Assembly (NCBI GenBank): GCA_963678705.1
Contig: OY783207.1
Coordinates: 23,596,001-23,660,000, forward strand
DNA length: 64,000 nt
DNA from: Panorpa germanica
Lineage: Eukaryota > Arthropoda > Insecta > Mecoptera > Panorpidae
Direction of reading: 5' to 3'
Made by a program: the position numbers and the translations under genes. Under the pieces are notes generated by a model. The model was not told the origin of the DNA. It did not search any database and saw nothing but the letters and a program-made list of their open reading frames with translations. This document shows positions 28,757 to 63,001 of the stretch, piece by piece; position 1 is the first letter of the stretch; each line of letters opens with the position of its first letter.

Positions 28757-28954
28757 TTCAAAACTTAATTTACGAACCTAACCTAAAAAAAACCATGTTG
28801 ATTTTACAAGAGCAGTTTACAACAGTTAATGTGTAGTTAAAAAAGTTAGGTGCACGTGGCTTTGTTTAAATAGGAATATTTAATATCAGTGGTTCTGTTT
28901 GAAGGTTATCATTCAAATAAGTATTCTGAAGAAATTAGTAAAATAAAAGCAACT

Positions 28955-31004
28955 ATGACAGTAACACCTCGTAAAACGCCGAAAGGTAAAACTCCAAAAA
29001 AGCCACTAGGTCCTATTCGTTTTGTTAAAGCAACGGATCAAAATAGCGAAACGCCGAAACAAGAAGCTGTAAGTACTCCTAAGCTTACACCAAGAAAGAA
29101 ACTTGTAAAAACCCCAAAATCTTCAGAAAATGAAATTGCCGAAACGCTGAAACAAGAAACTGTAAGTACACCTAAAGAGAAACTTGTAAAAACTCCAAAA
29201 TCTTCAGAAAAGGAAATTGCCAAAACACCGAAACAAGAAGCTGTAAGTACTCCAAAGCTTACACCAAAAAAGAAACTTGTAAAAACTCCAAAATCTTCAG
29301 AAATGGAAATTGCCGAAACGCTGAAACAAGAAACTGTAAGTACCCCTAAACTTACACTAAAAAAGAAACTTGTAAAAACCCCAAAATCTTCAGAAAAGGA
29401 AATTGCCAAAACACCGAAACAAGAAGCTGTAAGTACTCCAAAGCTTACACCAAAAAAGAAACTTGTAAAAACTCCAAAATCTTCAGAAATGGAAATTGCC
29501 GAAACGCTGAAACAAGAAACTGTAAGTACCCCTAAACTTACACTAAAAAAGAAACTTGTAAAAACTCTTAAATCTTCAGAAAAGGAATTTGCTGAAACGT
29601 CGAAACAAGAAGCTGTAAGTACCCCTAAACTTACACCAAAAAATAAACTTGTAAAAACTCCTAAATCTTCAGAAAAGGAAATTGCCGAAACACTGAAACA
29701 AGAAACTGTAAGTACCCCTAAGCTTACACCAAAAAAGAAACTTGTAAAAACCCCAAAATCTTCAGAAAAGGAAATTGCTGAAACACCGAAACAAGAAGCT
29801 GTAAGTACCCCTAAGCTTACACCAAAAAAGAAACTTGTAAAAACCCCAAAATCTTCAGAAAAGGAAATTGCCGAAACACCGAAACAAGAAGCTGTAAGTA
29901 CCCCTAAGCTTACACCAAAAAAGAAACTTGTAAAAACCACAAAATCTTCAGAAAAGGTAATTGCAATAGAGGTAACCCCAAAAGGTAACCCCAAAACTGA
30001 GGAAATGTCCATCGATTCGGTTGATGAAGAAGTTAAAATAGAACAAGAAACAACAAAACCTATTCCTAAAAGTGCTAAGAAAAGAGCAATTAAATTGAAA
30101 GAAGAAAGGCCAGCGAAAAAATTAAAGATTGAAAATGGAAAGGCACAGTGTGTTGGAAATATTTCTGGAAACATAGGAAAGAAAACAAGTTTCACTGTCT
30201 CTATAAGATATTCTCCTTCTGGCGTGATTACTACTAATGATGTACTCGAATTATTAAATTCGTGTGGTTCAATAATTTCTGTTCGACCAATTAAAGACTT
30301 TGCTGTTGCTTTTATGAAAACACATAAAGCAGCTCAACTAGTTTTAACCCTTGATGGAAAGAGATTTGGTGTAAGTAAGATGCATATTAATGCATTATTT
30401 TAATTATTTAATGTTAACTTTCTTTACATATTTTAGAAGAAAGTTGTTAGAACAGCACTATTACCAAAATGGAATAATCCATCAGCTCTAGTGATAGTCC
30501 CCAAAGGTAAGTTTATTGAGTAATCAAAGTAAAACTAAAACAACGGGATAATATTAAAATGAATTATATTTTGTTATAGACCATAATGAAATGGATATCC
30601 GCGATCATTTTAAGAGGTGTGGCGACATAGCATCTATTGATATTCTGTCAAAGAAAATAAATAATTATTGTTACATACACTTCCAAAATTTTAATTCTCT
30701 TATGGTTGCATTAACACTGACTGGAACTTTAATTAAGGTAAATAATTTATATAAAATGTTCATTACAGACAAAAGGACTTCAAAAAATTGATAGAAAAAT
30801 CTAAAATTTAATGCAAAATAAGCAATGAGAATTTCTTTGCGTTTCTGGTATTTTATATTTAAAATTATTTTTATGTTTTAGGGATTTAAGATTAATGTGC
30901 TAGAGATGAATGATAAACGTAAATTAAAGTTTTTGAATAGCCTTAAAATGGAACGAATGAAAACAGTTTTAGAAAATATGGAAGTAGATGGTGAAGCTGA
31001 TTAA
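28955..31004 (+). CDS. TPK-repeat protein with two RRM-like segments
   Basis: Exons 28955-30370, 30437-30506, 30580-30737 and 30882-31004 join in frame to 588 residues. The ATG at 28955 begins MTVTPRKTPKGKTPKK. Residues about 30-330 are tandem ~31-residue units of the form TPKQEAVSTPKLTPKKKLVK. The units are rich in [S/T]PK sites, which suit CDK phosphorylation and resemble histone H1-like or chromosome-coating tails. After an acidic-then-basic linker with KKRAIKLK, two weak RRM-like folds follow: about 400-470 (FTVSIRYSP, VLELLNSCGSII) and about 496-560 (DIRDHFKRCGDIASIDIL). Aromatic RNP residues are poorly conserved. I do not recognise the orthologue; a nucleolar or chromatin RNA-binding role is inference. 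AATAAA is at 31225-31230. Confidence 0.8.
29038..29960 (+). repeat. Intragenic 93-bp tandem repeat
   Basis: About ten copies of a 93-bp (31-codon) unit lie inside the preceding gene. A higher-order 186-bp dimer alternates ETLKQETVSTPKLTLKKK and KTPKQEAVSTPKLTPKKK types; the dimers starting near 29215 and 29401 are almost identical. One early unit lacks a few residues (VSTPKEKLVK). This indicates recent expansion and homogenisation by unequal exchange. Confidence 0.9.
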
Positions 31005-46253: not shown

Positions 46254-48222
46254 ATGTTAAGAAAACGAATAAAGAATGTCGAAGAGATACGAGAAAAAAA
46301 TGAAGAAATTGTAAGTTTTATGTAAAAGTCTTAATGATTAATCTTAATAATGAATAATCTTAAATGATTAATAAAAGGGAATCACTAATTTTTATTGTTC
46401 AGTAATACTTACAGACTATGCTTTTTTTGCATTAAACTATTAACAGAAATTGAAAAATCGTTGTGAGAATATTTGGGGAATCTCTTTTTAGTAGAAACTT
46501 GCGTAGTTATGAAACTTCTGTAAATTTAATATGGTTTTAATAAATTATATTAATGAACAAATTATTTTTTTCAGGTACAAGAAACGCGGAAGAGAAATAG
46601 TAAAAACAAGAACGAAAAAAATGGCAATAAAATAATGAATATTCTACACACATTTCTCGATCTGCGTCATCCAAATGGTTTCATATTATTTTCGACAATA
46701 GTTTTCACGTTGGGTTATATATTTTCTGATATAAACTGTAATAATAAACTAATAGAAAATATTTTCGAACAAAATGAAACATATATGGCAACAGAAGTAG
46801 AGGGAAAACCTACATATTGGTTTTACGTAAAAAATAATTTTACTGGACACTTGTCGCATGTCGAAACGGTTTTAGATCGAATAGGCTTCGTCCGGAAGAG
46901 TCATTTGATGAATGAGTCAAATTGGGATCTATTGTGGACCCATGATTACCCCTTCATTAAATTGTATCCATTGATAAACAATCTCCAGCCGCACCAAAAG
47001 GTGAACCACTTTCCCGGATCAGGATACATTACAAATAAGATCGATCTGTCCATCTCAGAACACCGCTACTTACCTCCATCCTTCCGAATTCCGGAAGATA
47101 TTGAGGAGTTTCAAGCGTACGCAAAAGAGAACCCGGATGCTGTATTTGTGCAGAAGCATAACCAACACAGAGGAGTTGAAGTTAGATATATTGATGAATT
47201 GGATCTAGAAAATAACGAAACTTTTATTCAAAAATATGTTGATAAACCATATTTGATAGACGGACATAAGTTCGTCATAGGAGTTTATGTGATAATAACA
47301 TCGGTTGATCCTTTAAGGGTTTACATATACAACGGTGATATTTTTTTTAGATTTTGTCTACTTAAATACCATCCATTTGACCCCGACATTCTTGAAAAAT
47401 ATGTTATAGCTAATGATTATCTGCCAACGTGGGAGGTCCCGTCCTTGTCGCAGTACTTCACTGCTTTAGGATATGGAATGAGGGATAGCTTTGACGTTTA
47501 TGTGGAAAATAAAGGGGGTGGTCCACGAAAAGTATGGGACCAAATAGAAGAATCCATTGCAGAAATAATATTAATGAAAGAGGAATTGATTGTTAATATA
47601 ACTCAGAGATTTAAATCGTCCCGAAATTTCTTTGAGCTGATGCGATTTGATTTTCTTTTAGATGAAGACTTGCGACCTTATTTAATGGAAGCTAATATGA
47701 GCCCGAGTTTGAGCTCGGCTCATTTTAAACCTAACAGCCTTTTATATGAGCAAGTTTTGTTTAACTTGCTGAGTTTGGTGGGAATCAGCAATCACGTAAG
47801 GAAGCCGTCTTTAGGGAAAAGGTAATTTCAATTGTCTGTAATGATTATTGTGTTTATTGTATGTGTATTATTATTATTTAACGATTTAAATTTATTACAG
47901 AACTCTAGGCGAGGAGTTAATGCTGTCATCAGAAAAGAATATAATGGTCAACGCAAACATTTGCGCAACCAATAATTGTTTATCCAGCTGTAGTGCTCCA
48001 GAATGCAGCCTCTGTAGACCATGCTTGGAGCCAGGCATGATAGAATCTTTTCATGAGGCATTTAGAGAGCATATAAATAGGCATCAATGCAAGAGGATAT
48101 TTCCACCACCGATGACCGAGGATGTGTTAACAGAAGAATACCTGGAACTGTTCACGCCAAGGAACCAAATAATGATGAAATGGTTCAACGCCAAGTGCAG
48201 AGAAGACTCCAGCTGGTGTTAG
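46254..48222 (+). CDS. TTLL15: TTLL15-like protein, array copy 1
   Basis: A tubulin-tyrosine-ligase-like ATP-grasp protein. Exons 46254-46310, 46575-47821 and 47901-48222 join in frame to 541 residues. A Lys/Arg-rich N-terminal tail (about 1-45) precedes one membrane helix (HPNGFILFSTIVFTLGYIF). The TTL domain follows: QKVNHFPGSGYITNK, ATP-loop lysine in VFVQKHNQHRGVE, FIQKYVDKPYLIDGHKF, then FDFLLDEDLRPYLMEANMSP with the metal-binding Asp, Glu and Asn. The last exon is Cys-rich (CSAPECSLCRPCLEP) and ends EDSSWC. Sequons NET, NFT and NES lie after the helix. Unlike copy 2 and the others, the conserved HKFDIGVY reads HKFVIGVY. The first exon sits close to a breakpoint where copy 2 has extra upstream DNA. 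Confidence 0.88.
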
Positions 48223-48937
48223 CGAATCATTACCACAGTCATCGTTAGCGAACATTTATTTTATGAGTATTTAAATAATACTATATTTTTAGTTATTGAT
48301 TTTGTTACAGAGATAAATTTATATATTCTTGTTTTTTTTTATTAATGATTAACATTTCTTATTTAGAATTTTCGTATTTAAACAAGTATTTAGATAAAAT
48401 AATTTATTTTCTTTGTAAAATATCACTGGAGCTGTTGTTATGTATTCTAGTTAGCCTATTTTTCAAATCACTTATTTAATAACATTTATTGTTTTGTTTT
48501 TATTACTTTGAAATTTTATTCAAAATTTTAATTTGACTTACCATAAAGTAAATTTCTTTTTCTTAAAATTATAGATATATATCTATAAAAATGTTTGCTA
48601 TATTTAATAATATATAATTTGCTAAATACTTCTAACTGTTAAAACTTGAGTTTTCTGATTGTGGATACTTTCGTAATATTGTGAACACACCTGTATATAT
48701 GTTTGACCTACAAATGGACTTGTATGTAGAAAACCATTCATCAGCATTATTTAAAGAATAATGCATAGGTGTAATTGTTGTAAAAAGACATTTTTACAAG
48801 CAGTAGTACTTACGACGGCATTGCGATATATATAGTTAAACGCGAGCTAAAACTTATTGTTCTCAACAGGTGAACGTGTCGGGAATTGTGAATCCAATTT
48901 ACCGCATAACGGTAAAGTCTGGTTGTACTTCAAGACA

Positions 48938-50944
48938 ATGTTAAGAAAAAGAACAAAGAATGTCGAAGAGATACGAGAAAAAAATGAGGAAATTGTAAGT
49001 TTTATGTAAAAGTCTTTATGTTAAATGATTAATAAAAGGGAATCACTGATTTTTATTGTTCAGTAATACTTCTTTGAAATAGTTCTTGCATTAACTATAT
49101 ATTTTGATTAGGGAGTGATATGTATCTGTGTCAGACTATGCTTTAGGCGTAATACTTTTGTTGCGTTAAACTATTAACAGAAATTGAAAAATCGTTGTGA
49201 GAATATTTGGGGAATCTCTTTTTAGTAGAAACTTGCGTAGTTATGAGACTATAATATGTTTTTAATAAATTATAATAATGAACAAATTATTTTTTTCAGG
49301 TACAAGAAACGCGGAAGAAAAATAGTAAAAATAAGAACGAAAAAAATGGCAATAACATAATGAATATTCTACACACATTTCTCGATCTGCGTCATCCAAA
49401 TGGTTTCATATTATTTTCGACAATAGTTTTCACGCTGGGTTATATATTTTCTGATATAAACTGTAATAATAAACTAATAGAAAATATTTTCGAACAAAAT
49501 GAAACATATATGGCAACAGAAGTAGAGGGAAAACCTACATATTGGTTTTACGTAAAAAATAATTTTACTGGACACTTGTCGCATGTCGAAACGGTTTTAG
49601 ATCGAATAGGCTTCGTCCGGAAGAGTCATTTGATGAATGAGTCAAATTGGGATCTATTGTGGGCCCATGATTACCCCTTCATTAAATTGTATCCATTGAT
49701 AAACAATCTCCAGCCGCACCAAAAGGTGAACCACTTTCCCGGATCAGGATTCATCACAAATAAGATCGATCTGTCCATCTCAGAACACCGCTACTTACCT
49801 CCATCCTTCCGAATTCCGGAAGATATTGAGGAGTTTCAAACGTACGCAAAAGAGAACCCGGATGCTGTATTTGTGCAGAAGCACAACCAACACAGAGGGG
49901 TTGAAGTTAGATATATTGATGAATTGGATCTAGAAAATAACGAAACTTTCATTCAAAAATATGTTGATAAACCATATTTGATAGATGGACATAAGTTCGA
50001 CATAGGAGTTTATGTGATAATAACATCGGTTGATCCTTTAAGGGTTTACATATACAATGGTGATATTTTGTTTAGATTTTGTCCAATTAAATACCATCCA
50101 TTTGACCCCGACATTCTTGATAAATACGTCATAGCTAATGACTATCTGCCAACGTGGGAGGTCCCGTCCCTCTCGCAGTACTTCACTGCTTTTGGATATG
50201 GAATGAGGGATAGCTTTAATGTTTATGTGGAAAATAAAGGGGGTGATCCACGAAAAGTTTGGGTCCAAATAGAAGAAGCCATTGCAGAAATAATATTAAT
50301 GAAAGAGGAATTGATTGTTAATGTAACCCAGAGATTTAAATCGTCCCGAAATTTCTTTGAGATGATGCGATTTGATTTTCTTTTAGATGAAGACTTGCGA
50401 CCTTATTTAATGGAAGCTAATATGAGCCCAAATTTGAGTTCGGCTCATTTTAAACCTAACAGCCTTTTATATGAGCAAGTTTTGTTTAACTTGCTGAGTT
50501 TGGTGGGAATCAGCAATCACGTAAGGAAGCCGTCTTTAGGAAAAAGGTAATTTCAATTGTCTGTAATGATTATTATGATTATTGTATGTGTATTATTATT
50601 ATTTAACAAGTTAAATTTATTACAGAACTCTAGGCGAGGAGTTAATGCTATCATCAGAGAAGAATATAATGGTCAACGCAAATATTTGCGCAACCAATAA
50701 TTGTTTATCCAGCTGTAGTGCTCCAGAATGCAGCCTCTGTAGACCATGCTTGGAGCCAGGCATGATAGAATCTTTTCATGAGGCATTTAGAGAGCATATG
50801 AATAGGCATCAATGCAAGAGGATATTTCCACCACCGATGACCGATGTGTTAACAGAAGAATATCTGGAACTGTTCACGCCAAGGAACCAAATAATGATGA
50901 AATGGTTCAACGCCAAGTGCAGAGAAGACTCCAGCTGGTGTTAG
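48938..50944 (+). CDS. TTLL15: TTLL15-like protein, array copy 2
   Basis: Exons 48938-48994, 49300-50546 and 50626-50944 give 540 residues with the same layout as copy 1 and near-identity in exons and introns. Here HKFDIGVYVIITS keeps the Asp that copy 1 has lost, and the metal site reads LMEANMSPNLSS. The ATP-loop lysine is in VFVQKHNQHRGVEV. A 3-bp deletion in the last exon changes TEDVLTEEY to TDVLTEEY. About 390 bp directly upstream (about 48520-48900), probably including the promoter, have no counterpart before copy 1. The genomic duplication unit therefore covers about 46071-48260 against 48351-50990. Confidence 0.88.
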
Positions 50945-51486
50945 CGAATGTTTATTTTATAAGTATTTAAATAATACTATATTTTTAGTTATTGATTTTG
51001 TTACAAAGATAAATTTATATATTCTTGTTCTTGTATTTGACCTTTTTTTTTATTAATGATATCCAACGAACAGAATTATGTAATAGTTTAAAAGTATCTA
51101 TTACTATATATTATGTGTTAATTTAATACATGTTATTTTTTAAATTATTTGAATTACAATTATTTGAAAATGCCGCATATATTAAATTAAAGATGGCGCA
51201 TTTTTAATACTTTTGGATTTGTAATACAGATGGCTCTAATAAGTGTGAAGTGGGCATTATTATCTGCGCCTGCGCTTAACATGTGAGATGGTAATGTCAA
51301 TTACTGTCAAAATTAAAATGGCGGATAGTAATTATATAGAAAGTAGAGCAATTAGATTAAAAATGTGCAAAATAAGATTAAAGATTAGATTTAATTAAAT
51401 TATGTTTAAAATATAGGTGTTGTGTTACTAAGCAAGTAACTGTACATTTATAAAACACATTTGTTTAACATTGTACTGTAATAAAC

Positions 51487-52790
51487 ATGAGTAACACATG
51501 TTATCTAGCGACAGGAGTTGGTCGAGGACTTCAACATGAAGAGACTTTTATTACCGATAACAAAGTGTACAAGGATGATATCTAATTACAACACGTCAAA
51601 ATCTTGTTATGGAATAGGTGAGTTAGCAAATATTCATAATTTGAGCATAAATATTCGATTAGAATTTCGCTTATAGTTTGTAAAGGAATGAGGTATTAGA
51701 TTACCAAAGTTTTATATGTTTTACCTCATAGTTATGTTTTTCCTGATCTTATACTTGCACTTGTGTTTACATAGATTTTTAATTTCAGATTTCTGAGCGG
51801 TTTTAGTTAATGTAATTGAGGCATCTCCTAATCACCTAATGTATTTGAGGCATCGTTTTGACTGGGGGAGAAACTCTAGAGAAAACTCAAGTAAGTTTTA
51901 TATGTTTTACCTCATAGTTATGTTTTTCCTGATCTTATACTTGCACTTGTGTTTACATAGATTTTTAATTTCAGATTTCTGAGCGGTTTTAGTTAATGTA
52001 ATTGAGGCATCTCCTAATCACCTAATGTATTTGAGGCATCGTTTTGACTGGGGGAGAAACTCTAGAGAAAACTCAAGTAAGTTCTATCGTGTATTTTAGG
52101 AAATATTTGAATTGGTTTTATTTTGAATTAATAAGCAGGACTGTTGTAATGGTACACTTGGTGTATATAGATAGGTTAGAATGACAATACTCACTGCAAT
52201 ATGGTGATATTATGTGTTTATTATAATAAAGCGTTTATTAAGTGGGTAACTCCTCTATTTGTTGTTTCAGATTATAAACATGGGGTCTCGCAAAAGTTTT
52301 TGTCAACTCGATTCAAGGTTGTCCTCGTGATTTAATCCAGACGTTAATGTAGATGCATATATATTAGGCGCAAGATTGTAGTTATGTCACCTGGAGATCT
52401 TCTGATGTAAGTTACATTTGTAGTAGCTATTTTTTCAAGATAAGAGGTCTAAATCATTAAAATTGATTAACGAAATGCTAAGAATCAGCTCATCTAAATA
52501 GTCAGAAAATATTATTTAACAGCTTTTGTTGCATGACGTGATTTAGACCCCTATTTTGAAACTGTTTATGCGTCCGTTAACTTGGGGCACCTTTTTAAAA
52601 GCCTAAACCTAAAGTGTATTCCATCTCCTAAATGTTTCTATTTGTTTCAGGATGCTCTTTCAAAATTTCTTTGGAGATACGTTTGGTGATGACAAGAGAG
52701 AAATTAGTAATGAACATAACTAATGTATATGTATGTAACTACTATATATAAAAATATTTAAATAAAAAATACAGTTTTTCAATATTTCAG
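51487..52790 (+). ncRNA. Candidate spliced non-coding transcript
   Basis: Five exon-like blocks have good splice sites but no shared long frame: one ending at 51617 (TAG|GTGAGT), then 51789-51890, 51975-52076, 52271-52406 and 52651 to a poly(A) signal AATAAA at 52761-52766. Each acceptor is a TTTCAG-type site, and the internal donors read GTAAGT. Only tiny frames exist: a 32-codon frame from ATG 51487 and a 31-codon frame crossing the 52406/52651 junction (MSPGDLLMMLFQNFFGDTFG...). It could be a long non-coding RNA, a smORF gene or a decayed gene. The exact 5' end is not known. Confidence 0.4.
51708..52079 (+). repeat. Perfect 186-bp tandem duplication including an exon
   Basis: Two adjacent copies, 51708-51893 and 51894-52079, show no difference on letter-by-letter reading. 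Each carries intron end, acceptor, the 102-bp exon and the donor CAAGTAAG. The identity implies a very recent event or an assembly artefact. Confidence 0.9.
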
Positions 52791-53161
52791 TAATTCAGTA
52801 ATTTTTTTTTTAATGAATAAATATTTTTTTGATTAATTTATTGATTAATTTTTTTTTAATTAATTAATTTAATTTAATTAATTTTTGATTAATTAATTAA
52901 ACGCTCATTTTAATCAATTGTACAGGAGTGAATGTAACTAAATGTAAAACGCAACATTTTACTTCTGCCACCGCAATATAGATGGCCTGTCGGCGTGATT
53001 ACTAGGATATACAATATAGATGGCACCAGTAGTATTTTTAAATCTATATATACTCATGCATTGTAAGAATCTCTTCAGTGTAGCTTTGGCTACTCGACTG
53101 AAAGGGAGGGTAGGCGTGCCGTTTTTTCTAAAATATATTTACGTATATATTAAGTATGTTG

Positions 53162-53380
53162 ATTAAAATTGTAAAGGCGACCTACGGTCGCCTTTACAAT
53201 TTTAATGAAGGGGCCTGTGGCCCCTTCATGCACTCGCGCAGCGAGTGCATAAACGTTTTTGGTGTACACGCGTAGCGTGTACACCATATAAAACCGAGGG
53301 CCGCGGCCCTCGGTTTTATATAAATATATAGTAAAGCAATAGGAGGACCTTCGGTCCTCCTATTGCTTTACTATATATTT
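53162..53380. repeat. Array of six perfect hairpins with 2-3 base loops
   Basis: Arms and loops are: 53162-53182/53186-53206 (21 bp, TAC); 53205-53215/53219-53229 (11 bp, TGT); 53228-53237/53241-53250 (10 bp, GCA); 53261-53271/53275-53285 (11 bp, GTA); 53286-53302/53305-53321 (17 bp, GC); 53322-53349/53353-53380 (28 bp, TTC). Hairpins abut or overlap by two bases, and the only gap is 10 bp holding AAACGTTT. Stem tips are GC-rich in an AT-rich setting, and arm sequences differ from one another. No frame or known element explains it. Confidence 0.92.
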
Positions 53381-53470
53381 ACCTCGTCTATCAATATTGA
53401 TACTATATATATGTATATATATAATATAAGCTAACTATATTCAAATCGACGTTTTAATCTTCCTATCGCA

Positions 53471-53690
53471 AGAGCTGCCGTGGCTCAAGCGGTAGCGTCA
53501 CCGCCCCACATTTCGTCGATCCGCGTTCGATCCCAGACCCCCGCCATGCTATAAAGAAAATCTCATATAACCCTGCGATCGCACTACAAGCCCCGCCCCC
53601 TCCCCCCCCGCTAGGAACGCTCCCTGAGTATGGCCGAGGCACAACCCCCCCACAACCCCATACAAAAATGCTGCGAAAAAAAAAATTATT
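53471..53690 (+). mobile_element. tRNA-derived SINE
   Basis: The head contains an RNA polymerase III A box (TGGCTCAAGCGG, 53481-53492) and B box (GTTCGATCC, 53525-53533) at tRNA-like spacing. It is followed by a C-rich unrelated body and an A-rich tail (GCTGCGAAAAAAAAAA then ATTATTAAAAA). The head cannot fold as a functional tRNA over its full length. A C-rich tract lies at about 53594-53612. It transposes with LINE machinery supplied in trans, and no second copy is seen in this window. Confidence 0.75.
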
Positions 53691-53789
53691 AAAAAACAGA
53701 AGCAAACTTTTGCCATTTTTTTTTTAAATTAAAAATATATTTTTTTTAAATTATTTTATTTCTATGTTACTTTACAATATTCGATACTA

Positions 53790-54431
53790 AATTTTATTAA
53801 TACTTATTATACTACTATTTTATGAATTTTAAATGTAGAGTCGTTCTAGCAGTCAGTATTGTCTACGGAGTCACCAGTTCAAGATCTGAAAAGAAAAATT
53901 AATATCTTCTAAATAAATATAATACAATGACTATAGTTGAACAGTCTTTTTTGAACATGAACATTGACTGTGTAACATTTAAATATTCTTTAATTTTTAA
54001 CATATTCATTAACAGTATATCTTAACTTTATATCTTACTTGAGTAGGCAGTACATTTATCATTTACACTTTTGTGATTATGTTATTATATATTTTACTTT
54101 AAAAATTTACTGAGCTCATAATTTTTAATTTTTCATTCTCTCACTAACAACACAGTTGCAATCACATTCGGTTCGGGTAGATTCGGGGCTAAGGTTTGTA
54201 ACCAGTGATATAGAGGAATAAGGAAGGAGTAAGGGAATAAGGAATTTTACAATTAAATAAAAATAATAAACTGCAACTCACTTGAGCGTAGTGATTGATG
54301 ACGGAACTGGACCAGGCCGCTTCCCCAGGACGTAAAACTCTCGGGGTTCAGGAACACAGTGGATCGTGAGTGACGTCATCGATGTGGAGGTTATGACAAA
54401 GGTATACACTTGATGCACTAAGCTGGAGGAC
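53790..54431 (-). CDS. 3' end of an unidentified minus-strand gene
   Basis: On the minus strand, 54431-54282 is an open, well-bounded exon (acceptor TTAATTTCAG, donor AA|GTGAGT). It joins in frame to a final exon at 53885, where the codons read Lys, Ser, stop (TGA 53881-53879). A minus-strand AATAAA lies at 53798-53793. The 150-bp exon encodes SSSLVHQVYTFVITSTSM, then HCVPEPREFYVLGKRPGP and SSITTLK. I do not recognise the protein. The exon starts in phase 2, so at least one exon must lie at higher coordinates; a weak candidate is at about 54565-54490. Its remaining exons may lie beyond part of the TTLL array. Confidence 0.45.
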
Positions 54432-54663
54432 CTGAAATTAATGAATAGACATTAATAATAAAACCGCAAACAAAGAAGATTCTCACAAGTGATGTAAGTG
54501 AATAAATCTCGTTGGTAACAAGTAAGAAATGTCATCAATTTTCTGTTTGCTGTATGAATTTCATATTTGCAAGAAACAAAACACAGTCAGTTTTTATATT
54601 TGACTTTTTGTTTAAAAGTCTAATTTTTTTATCGTTTATATATTAGAAAATATTTAGCAAAAT

Positions 54664-56789
54664 ATGTTAATTTGTGATTCGAATCAGATGCAGGAAGTAT
54701 GGCAAAAATGTGGCAAAGTAAATTATGACATATTAAAAAAAATAATTCGTATCGTTTACCACCCGGTTGGTTTTTTTCTGTTTACTTCATTCATATTTAT
54801 CCTTGGAGGTTTATGGCCGGAGTATGCAGTTAAGATAGAAATTAAGAAATTGATGAATACCAACGAGTCTGTTGTTTCTACGATTCCGACGTATTTGATG
54901 TACGTGCGGCCTGAATATCAGGAGCGGTTGGAGCACGTGCGGGGGGTTCTCGCTCATCTAGGATTCAAGGGGTCCACTTCCACAACGGAGTGGGACTTAT
55001 TCTGGAGTTTTACGTACCCGTTCCTCAAACTATTTAAGATATTAAGCATAGTGCAGCCGCACCAGAAGGTGAACCATATCCCGGGAGCTGTTTTAATTAC
55101 AAATAAAGAAGTTCTTTCAATGGAAGGGCACAGTTATCAACCTAAGGCATTTCTGATTCCAAAGGACAGAGAAAAGCTTCTGGAATATGCAAGGGCTAAC
55201 CAAAATGCCTTGTTTGTAGAGAAAGGGATCGCTCATAGGGGCGTGAAGATCACAAATATTTATAATGCTGAGTTATGGAAGAAACCGGACGTCTTCATCC
55301 AGGAATACATAGCCAACCCTCTGCTAGTAGATGGACATAAATTCGAAATGGGCGTCTACACCATCGTCACGTCGATAGATCCCTTACGGATCTACATCTA
55401 CAACGGAGACATCTTGTTTAGGTATTGCCCGATGAAGTACCACCCCTTCGACCATACAAAAACCGATAAATACGTAACCACCGAGTTCTACCTCCCCACG
55501 TGGGAGCTACCCTCCCTAACTCAACATTTCAGCGCCCTGGAGCACAGCATGCGGGATTGTTTTGTCAATTACTTCGACAGTAAGGGTGTCGACACTAAAG
55601 CCATGTTCCAGCAAGTGGAGGAAGCCATTACGGATGTTATGTTGCAGAAGGAAGACAAAATGAAGGAGTTCTACAAGGTGTTCCAGTCGAAGCAAAGCTT
55701 CTTCGAGTTGTTGCGGTTCGATTTCATTGTAGATGACAATCTCCGGGTTTATCTTCTCGAGGTGAACTTGAGCCCTAATTTAAGCTCCAAGAGAAGACCG
55801 CAAAGCGCCGTTCTGTATGAGCAACTCCTCTACAGTACGATGAGCCTAGTCGGGGTGGCACATTACGATAAGACAGAAAGGTAAGCCCTTAGTAAAAACC
55901 ATTCACTACAACACTATTGAACATTTCAACTATCCTATGTTTACGCGATTCGTATGGTGGCTCGAAAACGGCTTCGCGCATTTTCTTGAAAATTGCCTAT
56001 TTCGTAGAGAAAAAAATTCTAAGATTTTTGGCGTACTCGGATTTTCTCCTGAATTTCCTGGAAAGCCATAATTTTGGAAAAACTAAAAAAAAAATTTTAC
56101 TTTTTGCTCTATAACTTTTAATTCACAAAAGACAGAAAGTTGAAATTTTGCATGTGCTTTACGGTGTTCAATGCTAACATTTTTTGAAAATTAGAAATTT
56201 AAAAATTGGAAAAGGGGGCGCGGTAGAAAACTCAAATTTCGGATTACATAATAATGAAATGTTATTAAGAAAAAAAATTTCAAAATTCAAAAATTTTATT
56301 TAAGGGCACGGAGGCGGTTTTTGCCGAGGTTAAAAATGTGGCTAGAAAGTTGAAATTGTATATATGGGCTAACTTTGGTACCTAACTTACAAATCGAAAT
56401 TTAATTCACACATAAAAGACAGTCGTCGCTTGCGACGGGGGTTAACTCTAGTTTACAATATTTTCAGAACACAGAAGGAGCAAGTTGTTCTACATCCGAA
56501 GAGAAACATTTTGACGAATGAAAGTAATTGTTCCACTAGAAATTGTGCGCTAAGGTGCGGAGCCGCAGAATGCAGTTTGTGCTGGAAATGCTTGGATGAA
56601 GAAATGAAACAAAACTTAAATGAAGCTTACAGAGAACATCTCCATCGCGTTGAATGTAAGAGAATATTCCCGCCAACTATGACTGGTGAAGACCTTCCTC
56701 AGGAGCATCTCAATAAGTTTTCACCACGAAATCAAATCATGATGAAGTGGTTTAATGCCAAATGTAAGGAAGACCTCAGCTGGTGTTAA
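54664..56789 (+). CDS. TTLL15: TTLL15-like protein, array copy 3
   Basis: Exons 54664-55880 and 56468-56789 join to 512 residues. The N-terminal tail is short (about 35 residues, MLICDSNQMQEVWQKCGKV), followed by a membrane helix (FFLFTSFIFILGGLW). TTL motifs are intact: HQKVNHIPGAVLITNK, ATP-loop lysine in LFVEKGIAHRGVKI, DGHKFEMGVYTIVTS, and the metal site FDFIVDDNLRVYLLEVNLSP. The Asp of HKFD is Glu here. The Cys-rich last exon reads CGAAECSLCWKCLDEE and ends EDLSWC. Exon 2 is GC-richer than in the neighbouring copies. The intron is enlarged to 587 bp by an insertion, whereas other copies have about 53-85 bp at this site. Confidence 0.86.
55905..56445. repeat. Insertion in copy 3 intron
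   Basis: About 510 bp of extra sequence compared with the homologous introns of the other copies. It is rich in A/T runs and contains phrases such as AGTTGAAATTTTGCATGTGC, typical of diverged insect interspersed repeats, and CAGTCGTCGCTTGCGACGGG near its 3' side, a short GC-rich inverted repeat (GTCG-CTTG-CGAC). No frame is conserved. The precise borders are uncertain. Confidence 0.45.
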
Positions 56790-56970
56790 ATTATTTATAA
56801 ACATTTACAATTAAAAATAATATCGCGTCTTAATGTTGTAGACCGTATTTATTTTATAAGACACGAACTTTTGATATTTATTATTTAAAGAATAAACTAT
56901 TTTGTACAGCTATCTCTCTACTTAATAAAGTTAAAAAAAATACATGTGTACGTTAAAGATGTTGCAGCTA

Positions 56971-57080
56971 ATTTAGGGGCAAGGAAATTGATGTGCCATC
57001 TATGAACTGTAATATGAAACATAATAATGTGGTAACTTATTTAAACAATAGATGGCATATCAATTTCACTACACCTAAAG
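56971..57080. repeat. Small foldback element
   Basis: Two ~33-bp arms face each other across about 40 bp: ATTTAGGGGCAAGGAAATTG continuing ATGTGCCATCTATG, and its imperfect inverse AATAGATGGCATATCAATTT continuing CACTACACCTAAAG. A few mismatches interrupt the stem. It lies between copies 3 and 4, downstream of the copy 3 poly(A) region. It could be a tiny MITE or, less likely, a small-RNA precursor. Confidence 0.6.
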
Positions 57081-57542
57081 ATTATGCATCATAATATACA
57101 CAATCATTGTATTTCTTAAAAAAAAATCATAACTTAAAAAAATGAATAAGATAAAAAGTCAATTATATAAAAATTATAAAGTAATCCTTTTTGCATATTT
57201 ATAGTGATATTTTATCAAAATAAAAAGTTCTACGATTTTCTTAATTTCTTAAAAGGTAAAATTTATATGTTAAGTATAATAAAATATTTGCAAAGCTGTG
57301 ACGCAGTTCATATAAAATGTAACACGCAGGTAAAATGTTACTCGCCTGGTTATTAGGCTACTAGATAATAAACATATTAAAAATATTGTCAAACATTATT
57401 AATTATTGATACAGTCGCATCCTGGCAGGCTAGAAAAAAACAATGGACTGTTGAATTGTAGTGTGAACAATTTCATTATTTGTTTAAAAAGAAAATTCAC
57501 TGAAATATTCGGTTGGAAAATTAATCACCCCCTGAAATCACA

Positions 57543-59180
57543 ATGCAACCTCCTGATACAGATCAGATTAAGGAAGATGAGACAACTTCAAAGAAAATTG
57601 GAAAATTTCAAAGAGCAAAAGAAATGATTATGGCGCTGGACAAAGCCCTTAGCCTGAAGCACCCGCTGGGCTTCACTGTATTCACTTCCATAGTGTTCAT
57701 ACTAGGGTCCGTATGTTCGGAGCTGAAATACGGAGAATCCAGAAGAGAGGCCATGCACAACATCACTCACAAGCCGGAACCAAAGACGAAGCCGATTTAT
57801 TGGTTGTATCCAACAACGGAAGTTAGCGATGACTTCGAAAACCTACAGACAGTTCTACGGCGATTGGGATACAAGCAAGAGTTTAATTCCAGCAACTGGG
57901 ACGTTCTTTGGGCAACCAACTTTACCAACATAACCGAGGAGCTGACCAATTTAGAAAGCCATCAGAAAGTCAATCACATTCCAGGGTCGGGAAACATCAC
58001 AAACAAAATGTATTTATCAATGACGGAGAGCAAATTCATCCCCAAATCATTTCGCCTACCGGAGGAGCTAAAGGAGTTTCGGGAATATGTCCAAAGTGAC
58101 CACAATAAGTTGTTTGTTGAGAAGAGCAACAACCGCAGAGGAGTTCTGATTAAGAATCCAAACGAATTCGTTATAAACGATGAGGAAACTTTTGTTCAAG
58201 AATATGTAGGCAACCCACTGTTAGTGGATGGATATAAATTCGACGTTGGCGTCTACGCGATAATAACATCCATCAGTCCACTGAGGGTGTACATTTACAA
58301 CGGCGACTTCCTAATTACTAAGTGTACTACCAAATATTACCCTTTCGATGCACTGAAAACGGATAAATACGTAAAACCGAATGGATCGTTACCAGAAGAT
58401 AAACAATCGTCCATTGCGATGTACAACAAAGCGTTTGGCCAGGGAATGCGCGATAGTTTGAAGGCTTATTTCAGAAGAAAAGGACTCACTTTGAATAAAG
58501 TTTGGTTGCAGATGGAACAAGCGATTGCGGAAATATGTGAGAAGAATGAAGACTATTTGATAGAGGCTGTTGATGACTACCCGTGGACCCGCAACTTTTT
58601 TGAGATTATTCGATTTGATTTTATGGTTGACAATAAATTAAATGTGCATTTGCTGAAAGCTAAAGCTAATCCTGAAGGATTCTCTGAAGCGATCAGACAG
58701 GACCATGTTTTTTGTGACCAGCTTCTCTACAGTGCGTTGAATTTGCTTGGGATTGGCCATCTCATTATGAAACCATCCTTACGCATAAGGTATGTCACTA
58801 CAATCTGATCTTCGAATACTTTAAACGGAATTTATTTAAGTTTCTTTATTTTTTTCAGATCACCAACTGAAGAACTTATGCAATCTGCTGAACGGAATAT
58901 TATGGTCAACGGAAATATCTGCGTAAGGGACGAGTGCATCGCTAGCTGCAATTTGACTGAGTGCCTCCTTTGTCGCACTTGTCTGGAGCCGGAGATGATG
59001 AAGCAACTCCACGATGCGTACAGGGAGCATGTTAACCGTATTGAATGCAAAAGAGTATTTCCACCAACGATGACCGGAGAGGATTTGTCTGAAGATTACC
59101 TCAAAGAATATTCCCTGATGAACCAATTGATGATCAAGTGGTTCAATGCTAAATGCAAGAACAACAAAGCCTGGTGTTAA
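57543..59180 (+). CDS. TTLL15: TTLL15-like protein, array copy 4, probably inactive
   Basis: Exons 57543-58789 and 58859-59180 join to 522 residues. The tail MQPPDTDQIKEDETTSKKIG leads to a membrane helix (HPLGFTVFTSIVFILGSV). HQKVNHIPGSGNITNK and the ATP-loop lysine (LFVEKSNNRRGVLI) remain. The metal-binding segment reads FDFMVDNKLNVHLLKAKANP where sister copies have LLEVN.SPN, so the Glu and Asn are both replaced by Lys. The usual FRYC of NGDILFRYC is ITKC. The frame is open, splice sites are good and the Cys-rich exon ends NKAWC, so this is a conserved-looking pseudoenzyme rather than a broken gene. Confidence 0.86.
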
Positions 59181-59538
59181 AATACCAGAAACCTTGGAAG
59201 TCATTTTATTTGAAACTTTTATTTTGTAATTGAAATTTTGTAGTGAATTATTCATTTTAGGTTTTTCTTATCTAATAAATATATTTTAATGTAAAATAAT
59301 TTTAATTTAGAGGTACAATTTCTTGTAATTTTAAAATTCTTTTTAATATATTAAATAGCTACTTATTAAAATTAATTTCACGTAGTTAAAGATCTAGTGA
59401 GTAGTGAGTGAGGTAACTTTAGAACCAAAAGACGGTAATTGTAAGAAACAATTGAATAAAGAACATCGTATATTTTGTGGTTTTGCTTTTGAAAGGAATT
59501 AATAATTTCTTGTTTTTCGAATTATTTTTATTTTGAAT

Positions 59539-61173
59539 ATGTCAGTGATTAAAAACCTGGAAGAAGTAACACAATCCAAAAATGTAATAGTAATCTTCAT
59601 TAAGTTGTTACTTAATTACTTTATTAAGAAAACTTCGCAAATAAAGCATCCAGTAAGATTTCTGTTACTTGTCCTGATAATTTTTGGGTTAGGAGCCATA
59701 TATTCCGATTTGAAATTTAGAATCGAACTAAGAAGTTTAAGAAAAGTTTTGGTGCCACCATCCCGGTTGAGCTACGAGTTTGTAACACACGATGTCGAAC
59801 AACTTAACCATCTGGAGCTGGTACTGAAGCGACTGGGATACAAGTCCACATTGGATAAGGATGAGGTCGCCCATTTCCTCTGGATTGTCAATTTCTCACT
59901 GGAGCGATTTCATGAAATGTTAACAGACTTGAGCGCAGGACAGATCGTAAATCATTGGCCAAGTTTGGAAGTAATAACGAGTAAAGTAAATCTCTCCAAG
60001 ACAGATAGTTTATACATTCCGAAATCTTTTCGAATTCCGGAGGATTTGAACGAGCTGACTGAGTATGCAAAGAACGAGTCTGATTCTCAGTTCATGCAGA
60101 AACATGTCCTGCACAGATCCGTCTCAATGAAACCTTTCGATGAACTGGATTTGAACAATTCCCTTAGTTTCGTCCAGGAATTTATAGACAAACCATTTCT
60201 GATTGATGGCCACAAATTTGACATTGGTGTTTACACAATAGTGACATCATTAGATCCATTGAGGGTCTACATATATAACGGCGATATCCTCTTCCGATAT
60301 TGCCCCGAGAAGTACCATCCCTTCGACGAATACAATTTGAACAAATACGTGCTGGCCGGTAATTACATCCCCACGTGGGGCATGCCGTCCTTGACAGTTT
60401 ACTTTACCTCGTTCAAATATGGAATGAGAGACAGTTTCGACTACCGCATGAGAGCCATGGGAATTGATCCAGATAAGATATGGGAACAAATAGAAGAAGC
60501 GATATATGAAGTTATTTTCTTGAATGCTGAAAAGATGAAAAAACTTCGATCTTCGTACAATATGACGGGCAAAAACCATTTTGAAATGGTCCGCTATGAC
60601 TTTATCGTCGATGAAAACCTGGACGTTTACTTATTGGAAGTAAATTCGGGGCCCAATTTAAGTTCCAACATTTATGAGGACAACGCTGTTCTCTATGAAC
60701 AACTCATTTATAATATGCTGAGTTTAGTAGGAATTGCGCATAGGGTCAGTGCACCATATGTCAAGAATAAGTAAGTGACCTTCTACAGATGTACTTCATT
60801 TTGTTTATACGTAAATCCAATGTTAATAAACTTAAATTTCAGATCGTTTGCTACATCAGAATTAATGCAGTCAGCAGAGAGAAATGTTTTGACAAATGAA
60901 TTAGAATGTGAAGCCAACGATTGTAGCAGCAACAACTGCAACAACACCGCTTGCTGGCTATGCCGCGATTGTTTGGATTCGAAAATGATATCCCAGTTCC
61001 ATGCGGCCTATAGGGAGCATATTAACAAACTTGATTGCAAAAGAGTTTTCCCACCAGCACTACTGACTGGTGGAATTTTCGCAGATGAGTACTTGGAACA
61101 ATTCTCTACTAATGATAAACTAATGCTTCAATGGTTTAACGTCAAATGCAGGGAAGATGAATCGTGGTGTTAG
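59539..61173 (+). CDS. TTLL15: TTLL15-like protein, array copy 5
   Basis: Exons 59539-60770 and 60843-61173 join to 520 residues. ATG 59539 (MSVIKNLEEVTQSKN) is the first in-frame start. A basic stretch KKTSQIKHPVR precedes the helix FLLLVLIIFGLGAIYSDL. The TTL domain has AGQIVNHWPSLEVITSK, the ATP-loop lysine in FMQKHVLHRSVSM (Gly after HR replaced by Ser), DGHKFDIGVYTIVTSLDPL, and an intact metal site YDFIVDENLDVYLLEVNSGP. The last exon reads CSSNNCNNTACWLCRDCLD and ends EDESWC. It lies 359 bp downstream of copy 4. Confidence 0.87.
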
Positions 61174-61399
61174 ACTGTTATGTTATGATTTACGATTATC
61201 GAATGTAATAAAGACAAAGCATTGAAGAAATATTTCACTGGTTTTATTGCATTTCCACAATCAGGTAGTCAGAGCCTATTTCGTGAACCAAGTATTAAAC
61301 AAATGAAAGAACAGACTACTTTGATAACTATATTCTTAGTTTATTACATTTATTTTTTTATATATTTTTTTTTTAAAGACTTTTGCCTAATAATTTTGT

Positions 61400-63001
61400 A
61401 TGGCAATGTCACGGACTTATCAGCTTCAGCATCAGAAAATCGTGGAGAATGTAGATGATAATGATATCAAGACAATTCAACGCAAGTTGCAAATAGTTCG
61501 GTTGGCAGCGGTGGCTCTAATAGCTTTCGGCGTCGGGTTTCAATTCCCGGAATATGAATTCCAAAACAATATAAATCGTCGTCAACTGATGCTTAATGAA
61601 ACCGTCTTAGAAAATATGTACTATCGGGTATACAAAATGCAAGTACTCGAACGCTTTACTGTCGAACACATTGAGATGGTTCTTCACCGACTGGGATACG
61701 CTGAAGCGCTTTATAGAAGAACCTGGGATCTCTTTTGGGCAAAAGAATTCTCTCTTTCAAAACTTTATACAACATTAAGAAACATGGAACCGAGTCAAAA
61801 GTTTAATTACTTTATACCTTTGGCCCATATATCAAATAAATCATTTTTGTCAACGACGAATAACTACGTTCCAAAGTCATTTCGATTACCAGATGGCGCC
61901 AAAGAGCTCCAGGAATATTCCGCTAAAAATCCGCATTTACATTTCATGCAGAAAAACAATAACCACCGAGGAAATTCTATAAAACCAATTGATAAAATAG
62001 ATTTGAACAACAGCAAAATCTTCGTCCAGCAATATGTCGATAACCCACTGTTAATAGATGGCCATAAATTTGACATTGGCGTTTACACCATAGTAACGTC
62101 ATTAGATCCCTTGCGAGTGTACATATACAATGGTGATATTTTGTTCAGGTTTTGCTTAACAAAGTACCATCCATTTGACCCTTCAAATATTGATAAATAC
62201 GTAATGCAAGGAGTCTACAAACCGACATGGAAGATGCCATCGTTGTCCCGTTATTTCAATGCGGCTGGATTAGGAATGCGGGATAGTTTCGACGCTTACA
62301 TGAAGAGCAAAGGTTTAGACTACCGTAAAATATGGTCACAAATTGAACAAATAATTATTGAAATATTTATGACGGTGGGCACCCCCAACATTGGCATCGA
62401 GCCCAATCGGAATTTCTTTGAATTACTGCGAATAGATTTTCTCGTCGATAATAATTTGAAGGTTCATCTGTTGGAAGTTAATGCGGGCCCTAATTTATGC
62501 AGCAAGCATGTTAAAGAAAATGTTGTCCTTTATGAGCAACTGTTATACAGCGTCTTTAGCTTGGTGGGGGTGGCACAACGGACGAGATCTAACTCCTTAC
62601 GTAAGAGGTAACAGTTTACTAACCCTAATTTGATTTGATTATAGATTCTAATTAATAACTTTAACCATTATTTTAGTGATTTTGAGTCACAGATGATGTT
62701 GACGGCTGAGAGAAATATTATCATGACGACCGAGGAAGTTCATGGAGCTAATAATTGTACAGGAAGATGCAATGCGTCAGAGTGCATTTTACGCAGAGAA
62801 TGTTTAGATCTAAGTATGATAAAAACGCTGCATGAAGCGTTTAAGGAACATATCAACAGACTTGAATGCAAGAGAGTTTTTCCTCCTACTATGAACGGAG
62901 AAGATTTGTCGGAGGAATTTTTAGGAAATTTTTCACAACGAAATCAAATAATGATGAAATGGTTTAACGCTAAATGTAAAGAAGACGCGAGCTGGTGTTG
63001 A
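61400..63001 (+). CDS. TTLL15: TTLL15-like protein, array copy 6
   Basis: Exons 61400-62607 and 62677-63001 join to 510 residues. The start is MAMSRTYQLQHQKIVEN, with a second Met at residue 3. The membrane helix is LAAVALIAFGVGFQF. Motifs are SQKFNYFIPLAHISNKS in place of the usual VNHxPG, ATP-loop lysine in FMQKNNNHRGNSI, DGHKFDIGVYTIVTSLDPL, and metal site IDFLVDNNLKVHLLEVNAGP. The last exon reads CNASECILRRECLD, losing one conserved Cys to Arg, and ends EDASWC. The start of copy 7 follows 170 bp after the stop. Confidence 0.87.

Follow-up and report, generated by a model that had tools for sequence, protein, structure and literature searches.

A string of six perfect hairpins in Panorpa germanica belongs to a dispersed, possibly gene-like family with signs of template switching

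A block of six perfect inverted repeats lies end to end at positions 53162-53381 of a 64-kb stretch of the Panorpa germanica genome (C4:23596001-23660000), which was analysed as a whole and is called the window here. A search of the host genome for its stems, as proposed in the preliminary description of the block, identified a dispersed hairpin family to which the block belongs, and the suggestion of a one-off scar is therefore ruled out. The explanation that we tentatively favour, with confidence somewhat short of even, is that the block is a member of a noncoding, gene-like family in which template switching gives rise to the palindromes and selection preserves them. A fold-back origin of the palindromes is well supported, and the reading of the hairpin units as genes is plausible as judged from their sequence. 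The features of the unit in the window are as follows.

52974-52986 and 53012-53024, + strand: two copies of the upstream motif CAATATAGATGGC, which forms a ~63-bp tandem array in some other copies
53045-53052, + strand: TATA box (TATATATA), from the promoter alignment
53074-53079, + strand: TTCAGT, initiator-like, with a start predicted from sequence at A53077
53077-53127, + strand: conserved leader, with a stem at 53080-53084/53089-53093 and a T-run at 53122-53127
53162-53206, no strand assigned: hairpin 1, arm 21, loop TAC
53205-53229, no strand assigned: hairpin 2, arm 11, loop TGT
53228-53250, no strand assigned: hairpin 3, arm 10, loop GCA
53251-53259, no strand assigned: unpaired linker around AAACGTTT, found in the same position in several further copies
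53260-53286, no strand assigned: hairpin 4, arm 12, loop GTA
53286-53321, no strand assigned: hairpin 5, arm 17 around loop GC, or arm 18 without a loop
53321-53381, no strand assigned: terminal hairpin 6, arm 29, loop TTC
53382-53403, + strand: conserved 3' motif CCTCGTCTATCAATATTGATAC, also present without hairpins in L088-L093
53472-53540, + strand: tRNA-like segment, A-box-like at 53481-53492 and B-box-like at 53523-53533, with no ARAGORN call
53541-53725, + strand: A/C-rich stretch, followed by CTTTTGCC (53707-53714) and by a run of T
53886-53920, + strand: approximate right end of homology, not sharply defined, with CTGAAAAG, an AATAAA-like sequence

The block had been described as six perfect hairpins with almost no unpaired base, and this was confirmed, the linker at 53251-53259 being its sole unpaired stretch. 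The arms are perfect as stated, but the lengths given for them (10-28 bp) did not hold; adjacent arms overlap by 1-2 bases, non-overlapping arms measure 9-29 bp, and the block extends to 53381. With hairpins defined by a loop of at most 6 bases and perfect arms of at least 9 bp that contain 4 or more G+C, no further hairpin of that grade was present in the 64 kb. Folding of positions 53140-53400 as DNA gave z = -19.4, with 0 of 200 shuffles as good, and RNA folding of positions 53077-53475 gave z = -17.3 and -17.4 on the two strands, with 0 of 100 shuffles as good in each case. That both strands fold equally well counts against the favoured explanation. An Rfam search of window positions 50000-56000 returned 12 weak matches, none of them at the gathering score. 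At 8 family loci the only Rfam match was a U2 snRNA (RF00004, 56.8 bits) at L025 2288-2361, close upstream of the family member there.

The genome searched comprised 464,208,970 bases. The block as query gave at least 20 matches, and among the matches listed seven, itself included, spanned almost the full block. Copies on C20 and C16 as queries gave at least 87 and at least 58 matches; these counts are lower bounds, with the best 40 of 74 and the best 40 of 63 candidates scored. The resulting set consists of 38 oriented copies, some of them partial, plus L051.

A recurring order was observed in the units: upstream motif, TATA box, start-like motif, leader, hairpin string, and then one of two 3' parts. 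Units begin with at least one ATAGATGG motif, which in some copies forms the ~63-bp tandem array. The promoter alignment contained 23 distinct sequences from 34 of the 38 copies, the 4 copies lacking the anchor CAGTGTAG being left out; as this anchor was required, conservation of the start motif follows by construction, whereas the TATA distance does not. The distance from the start of TATATA to the C of CAGT is 31 bases in 21 of the 23 sequences and one base off this value in the other 2, which is the fixed core-promoter spacing looked for in an RNA gene. From -25 to -10, 13 of 16 positions are common to at most 12 of the 23 sequences. The leader contains a stem that reads GTAGC/GCTAC in the window and GTAGTG/CACTAC in L024 and is broken in L014, and both sides of this stem change together in L024, L032 and L033. 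The promoter and leader sequences argue that the hairpin unit is also a gene, and we infer from them that the units would be transcribed from the TATA promoter.

Two kinds of unit were distinguished. The first kind mostly has an AT-rich hairpin first, short ones next and a terminal hairpin last, with terminal arms of 27-29 bp in most copies that have one and 57 bp in L018; 3' of the terminal hairpin come CTCGTCT(A/G)ACAATATTGAT, the tRNA-like segment and the A/C-rich stretch. In the second kind (L039, L042, L044, L045, L047, L048 and L051) the array ends in another conserved sequence. Most non-terminal hairpins have arms of 8-12 bp and three-base loops. The number of hairpins detected per copy ranged from 2 (L017 and L019) to 25 (L044), in a count that allowed no zero-base loop and so missed hairpin 5 of the window. 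At the right ends of second-kind units L047, L048 and L051 an inverted motif like ATAGATGGC is accompanied by a TATA-like box, an arrangement resembling a second promoter directed towards the array.

Perfect reverse-complement arms, as template switching would produce, are the rule throughout the family. From one subfamily to another the stems vary in sequence, with the two arms altered in concert. Stems were perfect over 8 bp at 337 of 378 places, about 6 of the 41 imperfect ones appearing to be off register. A genome-wide search with TAGTCGCC-N3-GGCGACTA found 124 perfect occurrences and 11 more with one mismatch (124/135 perfect), and the backward-pattern control found 0. In an alignment of seven six-hairpin copies, pairing is present in 96.7% of 630 cells, and 20 of the 21 unpaired cells are at stem bases, the exception being in L014. 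Both sides have changed in 21 of 96 pairs in these seven copies, giving 40 double-change cells versus 2 one-sided (wobble) cells; 0 of 500 shuffles were as high for both counts, and slid controls gave 1-3 pairs. Such multi-base changes of both arms, without single-sided intermediates, are a further feature of template switching. Further pair types in the seven copies were not above the shuffles (24 versus 22.4; 145/500). In the last hairpin nine neighbouring pairs differ together between the window copy and L009 on the one hand and the other five copies on the other, as a single event would give.

Traces of fold-back copying were found in L018 and L019, the polarity of both events resting on three copies. 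To the left of one hairpin, L017 and L019 hold a stretch once, and L018 has its reverse complement after the hairpin, producing the 57-bp arm; L018 then has the hairpin a second time, its loop GAA having become the inverse, TTC. L019 contains an inverted copy of the right flank and terminal hairpin beside the forward flank. A loop inversion also separates the close copies L010 (TTC) and L011 (GAA), whose flanks are 21/347 apart, and an inverted loop occurred in 0 of 53 TAGTCGCC hairpins. Monttinen and Loytynoja (2022, PMC8794818) describe template-switched RNA hairpins with perfect stems, multi-base compensatory changes, loop inversions and stem-lengthening insertions. The Panorpa hairpins are alike in their perfect stems, multi-base compensatory changes and loop inversions and in stem lengthening from the other half, and what is seen in L018 and L019 bears the marks of template switching reported for RNA genes (PMC8794818). 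That description concerns rRNA and other RNA genes, whereas the Panorpa hairpins form a dispersed family with many tandem hairpins and GNA tips.

The hairpin tips follow a common grammar, as had been noted for the window block. The loop has three bases in 330 of the 362 hairpins detected in 38 copies, and these loops are GNA in 202 cases, TNC in 81, ANA in 29, TNT in 11 and other in 7, so that GNA or its complement accounts for 283 of the 330, chance being 8/64. When the tips of the 337 perfect stem places were read purine first, the first base was G in 290 and A in 43, and the last base was A in 326, with a mixed middle base (A 183, T 59, G 56, C 39). For the TAGTCGCC stem, GNA is present on one strand in 92 of the 124 genome copies. 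The UNCG tetraloops that had been proposed are out of register: the tips in question are the three-base loops C-TTC-G and C-TAC-G, in which the G of TTCG is paired in the stem, and their other strand reads C-GAA-G and C-GTA-G. C-GNA-G is a very stable DNA mini-hairpin.

On the explanation that we favour, replication would stall at the hairpins, and the new strand would fold back and copy its own arm by template switching, such that a single fold-back event could make or mend a perfect stem. The C-GNA-G tip would seed the fold, with its unpaired middle base free to change, and selection would remove units with broken stems. The simplest ground for selection on the stems would be that the unit is transcribed from the TATA promoter and that the folded RNA matters.

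Rates of change were compared over 41 pairs among 25 copies with cleaned labels, the pairs sharing history. Differences amounted to 737/10865 (6.8%) in flanks, 44/711 (6.2%) in linkers and 200/1051 (19.0%) in loops; of 4181 stem pairs 30 had changed on both sides, 24 of these involving the single copy L041, and 67 on one side. The order of difference in the 41 copy pairs was therefore loops, flanks, stems, although stem labels taken from near-perfect hairpins favour conserved stems and the true gap between stems and flanks may be smaller; at places labelled stem in the second copy only, 26 of 277 differ. Individual pairs depart from one another: L034 and L040 differ at 0/350 flank and 3/30 loop positions, and L013 and L014 at 0/18 loop and 31/234 flank positions. 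Mutual correction of the arms in the absence of selection would be expected to bring both-sided changes close to the rate seen in flanks. As they are ~9-fold rarer than that rate, we conclude that the stems are also selected or shielded. Whole-array gene conversion was rejected as the only cause of stem conservation, linkers varying about as much as flanks. The two explanations first offered for the perfect arms, fold-back copying or selection to keep pairing, are both supported by the L018 and L019 events, the changes on both arms and the greater conservation of stems than of flanks.

Whether the pairing is kept on the RNA or the DNA was addressed through the mismatches. Across 3024 stem pairs these were G-T in 8 cases, A-C in 19 and other in 31, several being shared by descent or off register, and no excess of sense-strand wobbles was present among them. 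Selection on the sense RNA is therefore not favoured, and as the sole keeper of pairing it was rejected; the upkeep of pairing seems to act on the DNA, although what is selected may be either the RNA or the DNA. Variable stem columns across subfamilies, chosen and classed by the analyst and counted as pair-type combinations rather than events, comprised 18 flips, 13 other transversions and 14 wobble-reachable combinations. The lack of a wobble excess would suit a DNA-level element, in which the hairpins act as cruciforms or single-strand folds in fork pausing, chromosome-end exchange or protein binding and the promoter-like sequence is incidental, as would tips that match C-GNA-G, the DNA mini-hairpin, on either of the strands. 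Such an element would not need the fixed TATA-to-start spacing and the conserved leader, however, and stable GNA triloops are formed by RNA too. We regard this as unlikely.

Of the scored promoter matches, 10 of 40 lie within 0.1 Mb of a chromosome end versus 0.4 expected, and 19 of 40 within 0.5 Mb versus 1.9 expected, these matches not being independent, since 28 of them are 97-100% identical and copies have kilobases in common; exchange of whole end segments may be behind part of the enrichment. The units show a tendency to face the chromosome interior, as do 14 of the 19 within 0.5 Mb (p 0.06) and 12 of the 15 within 0.25 Mb (p 0.035 uncorrected). The assembly contains no run of six exact TTAGG units. 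This and the end enrichment would fit the DNA-level element; interior copies, namely the window copy, those on C16 and several on C20, do not, nor does the absence of hairpins from 12 of 12 chromosome-end stretches examined. The hairpin units are near, not at, the chromosome ends, and the possibility that the hairpins are the chromosome ends themselves was rejected on the basis of those 12 stretches. A related and quite doubtful proposal is that of a self-renewing array, in which the C-GNA-G mini-hairpin, as the moving part, would allow self-priming of a strand that has stalled or broken; the array would in this way mend, extend and spread its palindromes and could help to keep or exchange chromosome ends without telomerase.

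Four of the 12 end stretches, in two pairs, share satellites, and the other 8 share nothing longer than 60 bp with another end. A 443-bp satellite at 99.8% is common to the assembled ends of C9 (left) and C7 (right), and repeats including a 372-bp unit are common to those of C1 and C17 (right) (both in the L078/L081, L079/L082 set). With TTAGG not found, these shared satellites are candidate chromosome-end repeats. Near one family member, L014 98-2133 holds an 87-bp satellite in a 435-bp higher-order unit of ~23 copies, and related sequence is present in L013 and L016.

The 3' part was also found apart from the hairpins. At least 27 matches to the 3' part of L036 were present in the genome, the window copy not among them. 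Six further places with the 3' motif and the tRNA-like part were examined, on C7 (twice), C243, C2, C5 and C1. The perfect hairpin string and CAGTGTAG were absent from all six, which indicates that the hairpin unit is composite; by eye, an imperfect AT-rich hairpin lies between two motif copies in these places. An eroded frame adjoins the 3' part on the opposite strand in the four places that were translated (longest 211 codons, in L094), and the same upstream sequence occurs in the other two. We take this frame to resemble EnSpm/CACTA-type transposases; it had no Pfam match up to E = 1. The repeat itself, L088-L094 (C7:6169300-6180750; C1, C2, C5, C243), carries the 3' motif, the tRNA-like part and the eroded frame, and in L094 it lies among ~1.18-kb tandem repeats.

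As the 3' part adjoins a transposase-like frame, the reading of the units as a mobile element gains weight and the gene reading loses it. The units would then be a non-autonomous element or part of one, with hairpins that are recognised by the enzyme of another element or lie in its subterminal region. Consistent with this, 28 of 40 scored promoter matches are 97-100% identical on many chromosomes, no flank of the window copy recurs in the other copies compared, and a similar ~45-bp sequence is present on both sides of the L051 unit. Many copies have kilobases of flank in common, however, as in segmental duplication, the left ends differ among the three young copies L047, L048 and L051, and no frame longer than 142 codons, stop to stop, occurs in L014, L015, L017 or L019. 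We consider a mobile element possible and somewhat improbable. CACTA subterminal regions likewise have short direct and inverted repeats near the end, and the 3' part is shared with repeats that carry the transposase-like frame. Unlike CACTA elements, the Panorpa units have no match to a transposase family and have a TATA box and start-like promoter, and no terminal inverted repeat was identified in them. One kind of unit resembles tRNA-derived SINEs in that its 3' part contains a segment with A- and B-box-like sequences; unlike a SINE head, it is internal, 3' of the hairpins, and it is absent from the second unit kind. A tRNA gene reading of the segment was rejected, ARAGORN having found no tRNA in 13 family loci.

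The terminal hairpin, with its perfect arms of 27-29 bp in most copies and 57 bp in L018, raises the question of a cluster of miRNA or hairpin-siRNA precursors. Arms of 8-12 bp with three-base loops, as in most other hairpins of the family, are short for usual Dicer or Drosha substrates, and no Rfam family reached the gathering score in the block; such precursors are very unlikely. Drosophila hpRNA and miRNA cluster loci are similar in being noncoding units with inverted repeats and fast-evolving stems, and differ in their longer arms and larger loops. An assembly or sequencing artefact is scarcely credible. Hairpins can cause sequencing errors, and L018 and L019 are single loci; against this, the same structures recur at dozens of loci with different flanks, and the assembly was built, according to its genome note, from 52-fold HiFi reads at QV 59.9 (PMC11464959).

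Sources outside the insect were considered as well. The viral source that had been suggested has no support, exact matching of three family motifs having given 0 matches in IMG/VR. One 21-base palindrome occurs in 24 stretches of GTDB genomes, and a single Gemmatimonadetes bin (Centralia_MAG_343) accounts for 16 of these. Application of the hairpin finder to 15 of the 24 stretches showed that the palindrome of that bin is often among other GC-rich palindromes. blastn of five units versus the 24 bacterial loci yielded 67 rows of at most 29 bases, and the 29-base match is itself a palindrome. A bacterial origin was therefore rejected, and the likeness was read as a coincidence of tip grammar. 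The bin (L052, L054, L055, L057 and others) contains a bacterial palindrome family with the same GNA tip grammar and, like the Panorpa units, several palindromes close together. Palindromic repeats of algal organelles and REP-like repeats of bacteria are also dispersed perfect palindromes with minimal loops, whereas the Panorpa family belongs to a nuclear insect genome and has ordered strings behind promoter-like sequence.

Template switching and structured noncoding genes are both known, and the Panorpa family itself could not be assigned to a described one, no such hairpin family appearing among the matches listed in the literature searched. Students of RNA and palindrome evolution have long asked how stems that single mutations break become perfect and remain so. 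Dozens of copies and hundreds of perfect hairpins in this one genome represent several stages, including matched changes, an inverted loop, lengthened arms and decayed tips, and would allow fold-back copying to be measured in both rate and direction. Should the units prove to be transcribed, a new class of structured RNA gene would be added; should they act as DNA, they might be relevant to chromosome-end upkeep in an insect without TTAGG in its assembly.

The neighbourhood of the hairpin unit has features of its own. At window positions 46557-62611 the unit is surrounded by six open frames in tandem that carry a tubulin-tyrosine-ligase domain (PF03133), the unit lying between the second and third; the first two frames are near-identical and are therefore recent duplicates. 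A 186-bp tandem duplication with 99% identity is present at 51707-52087. Farther away, positions 28874-30403 hold a 509-codon open frame of short repeats rich in TPK and KTPKSSE, and its opposite strand holds a 431-codon open frame.
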